Positions 2,823-21,645 of a stretch of DNA of 33,113 bases are shown here, piece by piece (the stretch's first letter is position 1; every line of letters begins with the position of its first letter). The DNA is from Acidobacteriaceae bacterium. GTDB lineage: Bacteria > Acidobacteriota > Terriglobia > Terriglobales > Acidobacteriaceae. The DNA lies in assembly GCA_003151985.1 (NCBI GenBank), contig PLZC01000265.1:1-33113 (forward strand), written 5' to 3'. Made by a program: the position numbers and the translations under genes. Below the pieces are notes generated by a model. That model did not search any database. It saw nothing but the letters and a program-made list of their open reading frames with translations, and was not told the origin of the DNA.

Positions 2823-3335
2823 GAAGCATTGCAACTTATGACTTTAAGGAACGGATTTTGGCCTTGAAATCCTCGGCCTAGTATAGGACGATTGGTCGAA
2901 AGTGGTGAATTTCTAGTAACCAAGTAGTAATATTTCCTTCATCTTTTCTTCATCTCTGCAGCAATCTACCAACGATCTGTCCAGCAATAGGCGCACACTC
3001 CCGAACACGTGATCGACTTCTGCCTCATAACGCCGGGGTGGTTTCATGCGACAAAAACGCCGCCCCGAGGCCGGCATGGTTTTGCATGAGCTCAGATTGG
3101 ATTCCTATCGAATTGCTGGTTGTTCTTGAATCTCCAATCCCTCGCTCGTTCCAATCAGCTTGGCTTCGTACCCATCACGTAGTCTGGCGACGCCCATCAG
3201 TGAGCTCCCCGGTCAAGGTCCACTTTGTCTTGCTAGTTCGGGCCGATTTTGTGTCTGCTGGAGTTGGCGGGATAATTTCGCACATAGCAACCGGCGCTGG
3301 TCCGCTGAGTGCGTCCCGGCGCGCCTATGAGCTGA

Positions 3336-4106
3336 GCCCAAACTTGGGCGGAGTCGAGCACAGTACCGGCTGGCTTTTCAGCCGATATGCCCAGACTTGG
3401 GCATACCTGAGTATCCCCAGAATTGGGTAGAACCACTACTGAGCCCAGTTTTGGGCTGAGTCACTCGGCTGGCCATCAGCTAAGTGCGGGCTGAGTTGAT
3501 CCACCGTTGGTGGACGGAGGTCAACGGGCTGAGATTCACTGTCTTTTCAGGCCAACGGGCAGGGAAGTTAGCCGGTTGTGGGTATGCTCAAACTTTGAGC
3601 ATACCTTCGGCTGAGTCACTGGCCTGACGACTCAGGTGAGTGTTCCTCCATTGGAGGAAGACCAGCCGGGTGTTTTCGGCCGATTGAATGCGCTGAGTTT
3701 TCAGCAGATTCAAGATCCAGTTTTGGACCTTTCGGGGAATCAATGGTTTGGCGGGGGGTTCCTCATATCGAGGACACCGGGTATTCCTCGTAAGTCTGGC
3801 CGGTTCTGCTGCGTTTCAATATAGGGGTGTGCGCCAGTGGAGTAGACCTGGCCCCGGCGGTGGGCCGCGGAGCGTCCACACCTATGAGCAGAAGGTCATG
3901 GTCCAGAATTGGTCCATGACGGTTTCGTTTGCAGGAACGACCCCTGCTGGCATTACGCAGATTTGCGTAATGATGATTCTGCAGGAGTTAGTGTCATTCC
4001 TCAGATTTGAGGAATGAGCCGCATAGAGATGACGGAGTTTTGCGTCATGATCCATCCTCCGTTGCAGGTTGAACCCACTTCGACATTTCCTCAATTTGAG
4101 GAAATG
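3336..4106. repeat. Array of about 14 short inverted repeats with divergent stems and a shared apex
   Basis: Examples: TATGCCCA-GACT-TGGGCATA (3386-3405), AGCCCA-GTTT-TGGGCT (3442-3457), GGTATGCTCA-AACTT-TGAGCATACC (3581-3605), TTCCTCCA-T-TGGAGGAA (3643-3659), CATTACGCA-GATT-TGCGTAATG (3951-3972), CATTCCTCA-GATT-TGAGGAATG (3995-4016), CATTTCCTCA-ATT-TGAGGAAATG (4084-4106). Confidence 0.88.
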
Positions 4107-4224
4107 CCATTGGTATGTTCCGGCGGGTTTAGTTTGAGTTATCCACAGATATCTGCTGCGATCTGCCCAAGCATAGGTGGTTTCACTTATTGACGCGGCG
4201 GTTCCGATACCGAATCCTGTCTAC

Positions 4225-4446
4225 ATGACCAACAACGTAAGTTCAGATTCGATCGAGTTGAGTGATTCCGACATTGCGAACATCACCGGCATTGGGGTGA
4301 AGGCTGAAGCATTGATCGCCGAGATCCTCGCGCAGTTAGACGAAGAGGCCCGGAAGGTCGCGCAGAAGTCAGCACTGTTGCGGCTATTGCTTCAAATCAT
4401 CAAGAATAAGAATGCTGCCGCCGCTGACATAACGGCGGCGCATTGA
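4225..4446 (+). CDS. Small hypothetical protein (MTNNVSSDSIELSDSDIANITGIGVKAEALIAEIL...)
   Basis: ORF 4177-4446; the internal ATG at 4225 is the more likely start; coding-like composition; no family recognised. Confidence 0.45.
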   Translation: MTNNVSSDSIELSDSDIANITGIGVKAEALIAEILAQLDEEARKVAQKSALLRLLLQIIKNKNAAAADITAAH

Positions 4447-4887: not shown

Positions 4888-5847
4888 TTAGGCGGCCTGT
4901 CTTTCTGGTTCGGAGTTGAGTTGCCGGTAGAGTTCCCGCTGGGCTTGATCTGCTGCTCCCTTGCGGCGGTCTTTCATGACCCTTCTCGCGCCCGCCTTCT
5001 GGCGACCGCGCCGGGCAGTGAGCGTCTCGTTAACCAGGCTGACAAACGATGTGAAACTGAGCATCTGGTGGGTCTCCAGGCGGCCTTTAAGCAGCTCGCA
5101 TGCCCGCAGGTAATCGGCTGCATACCGGCCCACAATCACGCCCTTAGAGCGCCGTAGCTCGCGGAAGGTGAACTCCCCTGACCTGATCCCAAGCCGGTAA
5201 TCGTCCTTGCGCTCGGAGATCTTCCGGAAGCAGTACTCGAGTCCCTCAGCGAGCCATTCCGGATGCGTCGGGTCGTCTGCTACTGGCCGCTTTCTGCTGA
5301 CCGCCATGGCCAGGAAGCGGGCCGCGATGAGGGGCAGGCCCTGGGAGTCAGCGGCGGCCTCAAGGCCGCCTTTCTCTCCTGCTGCGAAGTAGATCTGGCC
5401 GGCGATCCCGTTGGCTAGCATGGTGTCAAGCTGTCTCTGGTAGCGCCGGATGGATTCGTCAACAACCGCCAGTGCGATGCCTCTGTTGGCTGCCACCTGA
5501 TACCGCGACCGGCCTGTGAAGTGATCTGCCCAGATCAGGTAAGCCGTGCCTTCAGGCAGTCGGTCAACAGCGCGGCCAACGAACTCCTTGAAGCGGGTAA
5601 CCTTCACGCATCCGCAGCTTGTTGTCTCGCCTGACTGCAGGCGGTTCAGCCGGGTCTCGATGACGCCCGTGCAGTCCTTGCAGCCCCTGAGGCCGCCGCA
5701 GTCGCAGGTGGCCAGTACACGCTGGCCGCCGTGGTCGATCGAGGGCAGGAGCGCCCGGATAACCAGCTTCCCGTAGCGCATGCCGATCTCCGCCGAATTG
5801 TCCTTGGCGGGTCTGCCGGGCCGTCGAGTTGTGGAGGTTTCTGTCAT
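4888..5847 (-). CDS. Phage-like protein with N-terminal CxCG...SCGC zinc-ribbon motif
   Basis: N-term MRYGKLVIRALLP...VLATCDCGG...LNRLQSGETTSCGCVK resembles the YGrLtVi...CxCDCG...L.sGntkSCGC module common in phage and AP2/HNH-associated proteins; C-terminal part unrecognised. Confidence 0.65.
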   Translation of the reverse strand: MTETSTTRRPGRPAKDNSAEIGMRYGKLVIRALLPSIDHGGQRVLATCDCGGLRGCKDCTGVIETRLNRLQSGETTSCGCVKVTRFKEFVGRAVDRLPEGTAYLIWADHFTGRSRYQVAANRGIALAVVDESIRRYQRQLDTMLANGIAGQIYFAAGEKGGLEAAADSQGLPLIAARFLAMAVSRKRPVADDPTHPEWLAEGLEYCFRKISERKDDYRLGIRSGEFTFRELRRSKGVIVGRYAADYLRACELLKGRLETHQMLSFTSFVSLVNETLTARRGRQKAGARRVMKDRRKGAADQAQRELYRQLNSEPERQAA

Positions 5848-12454: not shown

Positions 12455-12748
12455 GTGGCAAATATACAACCGATTCGGCGCCGGGAACCTTCCGACGCTA
12501 CAACCACAACTACAACCCAGGCCGGATCACCGGCCGGCGATTCCACCCCTGAATCCCTGATCGGTGCCGACGAAGCCAGTGCTTACATTGGCTTCAAACC
12601 GATCACGATCCTGAGGATGGCCAAAAAGGGCTTGCTGCCTAGAATTCCATTCCCAGTTGGCAAGACAGGCAAGTTCAGGTACAAGTTCCGGATGTCCGAG
12701 TTGGAAGCGTACGTCGAGTCTCTAGCTCGGCCTGCAAAGGCGGCTTGA
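12455..12748 (+). CDS. Excisionase/MerR-like helix-turn-helix DNA-binding protein
   Basis: LIGADEASAYIGFKPITILRMAKKGLLPRIPFPVGKTGKFRYKFRMSELEAYVESLARP, typical of the HTH_17/excisionase family; GTG start. Confidence 0.75.
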   Translation: MANIQPIRRREPSDATTTTTTQAGSPAGDSTPESLIGADEASAYIGFKPITILRMAKKGLLPRIPFPVGKTGKFRYKFRMSELEAYVESLARPAKAA

Positions 12749-13718: not shown

Positions 13719-14276
13719 ATGTTGATCGGCTATGCGCGCGTCTCCACCCAGGACCAGAATCTCGGTTTGCAGATAGATGCCCTGACCAATGTGGGGTGCA
13801 AGAAGATCTTCCACGAAAAAACAAGCGGCAGCCGCGCGGAACGCCCCGAGTTCACAAAAGCGCTGGAAGCGTTGCGCGAAGACGACACGCTCGTCGTTTG
13901 GAAGCTGGACCGGCTGGGCCGGAGCGTCAAGACCCTGGTTGACTTGGTTAGCGAGCTCGACAAGCAAGGCATCCAGTTCAAGAGTCTTACCGACGCGATC
14001 GATACAGGTACGCCTTCGGGCCGCTTCTTCTTTCATGTCATGGCCAGTCTGGCACAGATGGAGCGGGAATTGACCGTCGAAAGAACCCGCGCTGGTCTTG
14101 AAACCGCCCGGAAGCTGGGCCGCAAAGGAGGCCGTAAGCGGCGGATGACCGACAGCAAGATAGAATCTGCAAAGCGACTGCTAGCCAACGGTATGCCGCC
14201 CCGAGACGTAGCCCTGAACCTCAGCGTGTCCATTCCAACGCTTTACAGGTGGATTCCAGCCTCTACACAGCCTTAG
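13719..14276 (+). CDS. Serine recombinase (resolvase/invertase family)
   Basis: MLIGYARVSTQDQNLGLQIDAL...VVWKLDRLGRSVKTLVDLV...TPSGRFFFHVMASLAQMERELTVERTRAGL, with C-terminal HTH. Confidence 0.95.
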   Translation: MLIGYARVSTQDQNLGLQIDALTNVGCKKIFHEKTSGSRAERPEFTKALEALREDDTLVVWKLDRLGRSVKTLVDLVSELDKQGIQFKSLTDAIDTGTPSGRFFFHVMASLAQMERELTVERTRAGLETARKLGRKGGRKRRMTDSKIESAKRLLANGMPPRDVALNLSVSIPTLYRWIPASTQP

Positions 14277-21220: not shown

Positions 21221-21645
21221 CAGGGGCTAAAGCCCTGGTGATTTTATTGGGTTTATCGGCACGACTAAAGTCGTGCCCTGTTACAAAGCCCCAGAAATGG
21301 AGTTTTTCCGCAGCCTGTAAAGCCCATTGATTTTGTTGGCTTTATCGGCACGACTGAAGTCGTGCCTTAAAAAGAAACTAGATCCCTGTCTTTTTGTAAG
21401 TTGAACAATCGAAATGTGATGGGTAGAGGGTGGGTTCTTGGACAGATGCAGCGAGTTAGCGCCCGCTACGCTGGGGTTAGCGAGTTAGCAAGTTAGCGGA
21501 TGGCAGTGATCGAGGCAGGTTTCATCCCTCCGTGGGTCGGCGAAGCCGGTGGACGACTGTTACAAAGCCCCAAGATGGGAGTTTTTTCGCAGCATGTAAA
21601 ACCCATTGATTTTATTGGCTTTATCGGCACACCTGAAGTCGTGCC
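21221..21645. repeat. Dispersed hairpin repeat family GGCACGACTRAAGTCGTGCC (three copies) with repeated flanks
   Basis: GGCACGACTAAAGTCGTGCC (21258-21277), GGCACGACTGAAGTCGTGCC (21347-21366), decayed GGCACACCTGAAGTCGTGCC (21626-21645); shared context TTACAAAGCCCCA, CGCAGC.TGTAAA.CCCATTGATTTT.TTGGCTTTATC. Confidence 0.9.

Follow-up and report, generated by a model that had tools for sequence, protein, structure and literature searches.

Palindromes of a probable Rha/Roi operator type arrayed in a non-coding interval of an Acidobacteriaceae contig

The stretch analysed here, called the window, is the whole 33,113-nucleotide contig PLZC01000265.1 of an Acidobacteriaceae bacterium (assembly GCA_003151985.1). 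Between positions 3336 and 4106 it carries an array of short inverted repeats whose arms differ from one repeat to the next, while each repeat stays self-complementary around a similar apex. What kind of element holds so many different palindromes side by side, and what would read them? A first-pass annotation, made from the letters of the DNA, listed 14 repeats and offered three answers: a large structured non-coding RNA (ncRNA), folded single-stranded DNA substrates for recombination, or a proliferating miniature palindrome family. The comparisons reported here point elsewhere. With a probability of roughly 0.55, we read the interval as a non-coding array of about 13 double-stranded operators for winged-helix proteins of the Rha/Roi type (PF09669), acting in trans as a decoy or a sensor. 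The identity of the palindromes as operators is well supported by sequence comparison; the role as decoy or sensor is what we infer for the array as a whole.

All 14 listed repeats are present, at or a few bases from their listed positions. Positions 3301-4140 hold 12, 8, 7, 4 and 3 non-overlapping hairpins at scores of at least 6, 7, 8, 9 and 10, respectively, against 1.6, 0.42, 0.11, 0.04 and 0.01 expected from 500 dinucleotide shuffles, and the array is thus non-random, as had been proposed. It is the densest hairpin cluster within 1.2 Mb of its own and a complete congeneric genome, with eight hairpins of score at least 7 compared with five in the next densest 800-bp window. Unusual fold stability is found on both strands and is limited to about 3301-4200 (RNA fold z: + strand -5.7, - strand -11.3), and the interval is indeed without a coding gene. 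CA..TG closes each of the 11 clear hairpins, as it does only 8.4% of background genomic hairpins. The pairs at -3 to -6 differ from hairpin to hairpin, yet they are Watson-Crick in 11-13 of 13, which bears out the description of the arms as diversified but self-complementary. The constant apex claimed for nearly all copies holds for these 11, whereas the hairpin at 3692 closes on GA..TC, that at 3500 is weak and that at 4029 is mixed; A-NNNT-T describes the apex better than a strict GNNT, and every loop of unambiguous orientation reads GNNT on the + strand. The hairpins are 14-26 nt long. Going outward from the apex, five of them meet A.C (G.U if read on the - strand) as their first mismatch and two meet G.T. 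The units at 3951 and 3995, as well as those at 3386 and 3581, look paralogous.

A palindrome inside phage Rha/Roi genes

The lead to a reader of these sites came from the pattern CATTNNNCAGATTTGNNNAATGA, for which two array hairpins were reduced to their apex and outer bases. Scanned over GTDB, it gave 58 matches, two of which equal the window site at 3995 exactly, all six free bases included. One identical match to this site (3995-4016) lies in Acetobacter, inside the gene for a phage antirepressor whose domains are Rha (PF09669) and ANT. At these codons, a viral relative carries CATTCCCCA-GATT-TGGGGAATG, in which the arm changes compensate each other. The sample comprised 80 Rha loci drawn from IMG/VR by profile, plus a dozen taken out of phage records; in it, hairpins concentrate 80-125 nt past the MSSxEIA codons. 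A palindrome stands at that place in 48 of 63 distinct Rha genes under a strict threshold (2.8% in shuffles) and in 52 of 54 under a relaxed one. Its arms vary by gene and its apex is mostly CA-NNNN-TG or GA-NNNN-TC, which is the signature of the window array.

The arms of these palindromes follow the protein that the gene encodes. When 48 palindromes were aligned on the innermost A-T pair and the helix was read as H-x1-X2-V-x-R, the residue at X2 went with the base at -3 (N with T in 20/20, H with C in 11/12, D with G in 10/13, T with A in 2/2; permutation z 20.6), the residue at the Arg position with the base at -2 (R with C in 35/36, A with G in 8/8, K with A in 4/4; permutation z 23.6), and x1 with the base at -5 (D with C and K with G, 14/14 each; permutation z 12.2). 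Problems of register seem to account for the exceptions at -3 (L374 and the VxAT group L375/L376/L404), and the amino acid-to-base rules recur in divergent Rha groups. The predicted structure of Rha (mean predicted local distance difference test score, pLDDT, 82) contains a helix-turn-helix (HTH), with a second helix starting at K-x-H and then a beta-hairpin; the code residues would lie at the start of this second helix. A fold search of the model against the PDB gave no significant match. The simplest reading of sequences and model is that Rha would be a dimer that reads duplex DNA and has its operator within its own gene and, because the arms follow the recognition helix, the Rha-gene palindromes are very probably the cognate DNA operators of Rha proteins. 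HK022 Roi, the classical member, reportedly binds to a site within its own gene.

We found no description of the palindrome or of its code in the open literature, and the palindrome together with its three-residue/three-base code is apparently an undescribed regularity, one that makes the reading of the array testable. The code can be applied to the Rha-like matches in about 600 phage records, predicts for each array site the phages it should bind and provides orthogonal regulators to draw on.

Palindromes of this type were also seen outside the usual place. Rhodoblastus (L345) has a lone operator outside Rha genes, upstream of a regulator. In coliphage BEK3 (L354), a non-coding Rha-type palindrome, ATGGCTCA, precedes the start codon of the Rha gene by about 42-23 nt; its half-site GGCTCA fits a Rha other than the phage's own, whose site is ATGCCCCA with half-site GCCCCA, and the upstream palindrome is possibly a site for a rival's regulator. 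Two Drexlerviridae (L347, L348) have the tandem non-coding Rha-type palindromes CATTCCTAAGATTTGAGGAG and TTCCTCAATTTGAGGA at about 2500-2551, upstream of a KilA gene.

The array sites and their surroundings

Compared with the Rha palindromes, the window hairpins reach a mean best local score of 13.2, and 13 of 16 score at least 12. For 400 genomic hairpins, the mean is 7.2 and 1.25% reach that line; window hairpins with permuted stems, the inner two pairs being kept, score 9.8 on average, and the best of 30 sets reaches 10.8. The array also has the form of the Rha operator: an innermost A-T pair, next to it C-G (G-C with an Ala helix), and a 4-nt centre. These sequence comparisons show the window palindromes to be real and diversified and to fall into the Rha operator class, and we strongly infer that Rha-type proteins of several specificities could bind them. 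Because the arms match Rha/Roi-gene palindromes that covary with the encoded recognition helix, the array is best taken as double-stranded operator DNA. The proposal of folded single-stranded recombination substrates is not supported. The half-sites fall into at least seven classes, for which the code predicts at least seven helix types.

The individual sites, all on the + strand save one, are given here with their best local scores. The highest belongs to TCATTCCTCA-GATT-TGAGGAATGA (3994..4017; score 22), whose 22 inner bases are those of the Acetobacter Rha-gene palindrome (L305, L351). It is followed by CCGGCTGGCTTTTCAGCCGA (3365..3385, - strand; score 17 against Rha TCGGCTGAAAAGTCAGCCGA of L407), a site of the CGGCTGA type with apex GA..TC, whose hairpin at 3367-3384 is additional to the 14 first listed, and by CATTTCCTCA-ATT-TGAGGAAATG (4084..4106; score 15). 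Three sites score 14: GGTATGCTCA-AACTT-TGAGCATACC with its 12-bp stem (3581..3605; against Rha CCTGCTCAAAGTTGAGCAGG of L388), GTCATGGTCCA-GAAT-TGGTCCATGAC (3895..3920; against Rha GATGGTCCAAGATTGGGCCATC of L350) and CATTACGCA-GATT-TGCGTAATG (3951..3972). One, TTCCTCCA-T-TGGAGGAA (3643..3659), scores 13. At the line of 12 stand GCCCA-AACT-TGGGC (3336..3349; half-site GAGCCCA), which resembles the Rha palindrome TTGCCCAAAGTTGGGCAA; TATGCCCA-GACT-TGGGCATA (3386..3405); the imperfect TCCCCA-GAAT-TGGGTA (3414..3429; half-site CCCCA), matched to Rha CATTCCCCAGATTTGGGGAATG; GCTGA-GTTT-TCAGC (3692..3705), whose apex GA..TC is that of the Rha variant with Ala for Arg; the degenerate 5-bp palindrome TTCCTCATATCGAGGA (3758..3776); and ATGACGGA-GTTT-TGCGTCAT (4029..4048), with one mismatch at the -2 pair (GGA in one arm, GCA in the other). 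Below it are AAGATCCA-GTTT-TGGACCTT (3712..3731; score 11), with one A.C mismatch, ACTGAGCCCA-GTTT-TGGGCTGAGT (3438..3461; score 10), with one mismatch, and the weakest of the array, TCCACC-GTT-GGTGGA (3500..3514; score 9), which is poor in the CA..TG register. We rejected the idea that the array is a Rha pseudogene: the apices do not lie in a single frame and a PF09669 match is absent.

Downstream, 33 bp past the last palindrome, lies a perfect DnaA box, TTATCCACA (4139..4147, + strand), whose link to the array is unproven. An orphan open reading frame (ORF) of 73 aa follows (4225..4446, + strand); it had no relative in 150 related genomes, viral contigs or 85,462 GTDB genomes, and its membership of the system is unproven. 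The protein encoded at 4888-5847 has a weakly HNH-endonuclease-like N-terminus and distant relatives near recombinases in this genome and in a congener; used as a search anchor, it retrieved weak mobile-element relatives only, without arrays. At the contig start, a truncated integrase (677-1096; N-terminal part only) points to a mobile element that has decayed. A dispersed repeat at 2380-2930 occurs in seven copies in the genome; its perfect 24-bp palindrome shows compensating changes in another copy (GTAGGAAATCCCGGGATTTCCTAC versus GTAGGGAATCCCGGGATTCCCTAC). The repeat probably breaks the assembly, since several copies lie at contig ends; these contig-end copies have no hairpin arrays, and we rejected the repeat as part of the array element. 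Farther away, the paired hairpins GGCACGACT-AA/GA-AGTCGTGCC at 21258-21277 and 21347-21366, also found on other contigs (L013, L028), belong to a REP-like family.

What the array may do

With a different half-site at each position, the array would be readable by many Rha proteins, of at least seven recognition-helix types. It could act on the regulators of incoming phages, whether by titrating them as a decoy or by serving as a sensor region from which their binding is relayed to nearby genes. Less firmly than the binding itself, we take action on incoming regulators as most likely, because no single protein reads all half-sites and the genome is without a Rha gene (PF09669 had no match in it, although the assembly is 73% complete and the absence of Rha is not certain). 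The uniform orientation of the loops points to one of three things: sites copied from one another inside the array, their capture out of Rha coding sequence, or a further role as RNA. More tentatively, the array may be a polyvalent chromosomal element that works against phages, or senses them, without a protein of its own: it would display the operators of many Rha-family regulators, so that the regulator of any entering phage would be titrated or detected. Phage Rha genes may be the source of new sites, because the loops read like coding S/P-D/E/V/N-Leu in a single orientation. If this is true, a mixed-specificity operator array for one phage-regulator family would represent a novel type of element.

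Several observations weigh against an operator array with a role in trans. The fold z of -11.3 on the - strand and the one-way loops are not needed for a plain operator array. The assignment of a helix to each window site is a prediction rather than evidence, because nearly any CA-closed palindrome fits some helix, and the Rha sequences are related, so that the z-scores of the code (12.2 to 23.6) overstate independence. PF09669 was above its cut-off in none of 300 relatives; Rha is thus rare in the host class, and it is not evident why decoys would be much needed there. Finally, no search made has found a second, homologous array. BLAST returned chance-level matches of 20-35 bp only, in sets of 120 and of 399 relatives as well as in phage and plasmid records; an IUPAC triple-hairpin pattern met only coding repeats in viral contigs, where the site TGGTCCAGAATTGGNCCA had one chance match, inside an acidic coding repeat; the exact operator patterns TTCCTCANNNTTGAGGAA and TGGTCCANNNTTGGNCCA gave solitary sites and no arrays across 250 relatives; and 3.1 Mb of other non-Rha DNA held no cluster comparable to the nine Rha-like palindromes per 770 bp of the array.

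Among other explanations, the one that survives best, although we consider it unlikely, is that the interval is what remains of a region that controlled regulation or replication in a prophage or mobile element since decayed, its sites once used by several Rha-like or O-like proteins encoded nearby, as at a lambda-like origin with iterons and a DnaA box. The truncated integrase, an excisionase-like HTH at 12455, a resolvase at 13719 and the perfect DnaA box at 4139 are in line with such a history, and lambda-type O genes do contain palindromic iterons, CCCTCA..TGAGGG (L136). However, origin iterons are near-identical and serve one initiator, whereas the array has at least seven half-site classes; moreover, the scanned ORFs of the window include no O-like or Rha-like gene or other initiator, and the genome has no PF09669 match.

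Somewhat less probable is a large structured ncRNA on the - strand with locally folding hairpins, to which the likeness to Rha would be secondary, for instance if the same kind of protein recognised hairpins. The greater fold stability of the - strand, the five A.C mismatches that would be G.U there and the one-way loops speak for it. The first-pass proposal of a large structured RNA gained no support, as no Rfam family matched at gathering or permissive thresholds (best E-value 1.0, far under its cut-off) and neither DNA searches nor a covariance model of 3940-4112, built from this single sequence and run on 300 relatives, found a homologue: the model matched itself only, and hence no covariation across homologues came to light. 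The amino acid-to-base rules of Rha suit the reading of duplex DNA, and the mismatches of the Rha palindromes (8 GT, 4 AC) are too weakly biased towards G.U to decide. A proliferating palindrome family did not hold up either: no copy of the array stood above background elsewhere in the 6.0-Mb genome, where REP/BIME or another dispersed family calls for many dispersed copies with conserved stems; the first-pass annotation was right that no named element fits the array. Least probable of all are functionless quasi-palindromes, for which a few ancestral hairpins would have been duplicated locally and the copies then shaped and perfected by template switching during replication. Such switching makes and keeps perfect stems with multibase compensatory changes (PMC8794818), and the seemingly paralogous units would suit this origin, but it leaves unexplained the better match to Rha than that of stem-permuted versions, the CA..TG closure and the 22-base identity with a phage gene.

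Comparison with known systems

The attC sites of integrons are imperfect palindromes of 57-141 nt between cassettes, with R boxes GTTRRRY/RYYYAAC; the array hairpins are shorter and, by inspection, lack these boxes. The large ncRNAs GOLLD, ROOL and OLE (PMC12286853) resemble the array in having many hairpins in about 800 nt and a mobile context, but the array has no Rfam match, no shown multibranched conserved fold and no tRNA island. Closer in kind are the iterons of the lambda origin in gene O, which are palindromic sites of a winged HTH protein in its own gene, with half-site CCTCA..TGAGG, and the DnaA box adds to the likeness; lambda iterons are nevertheless near-identical and read by one initiator, and an origin of this theta type, with near-identical iterons and an initiator gene, is not what the array and the scanned ORFs show. 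Mycobacteriophage stoperators and multi-operator regions consist of many short operators, dispersed or tandem, for one phage regulator of one specificity. The array shares with them the multiplicity of short phage-regulator operators, but its specificity changes from site to site. The nearest relatives are the phage Rha/Roi/Ant antirepressor genes (PF09669), with which the array has in common palindrome architecture, apex and half-site repertoire, one site being identical over 22 bases. There, a single site lies inside the gene of its own reader, whereas here 13 different sites lie together in non-coding DNA, with no PF09669 gene in the window or the genome.
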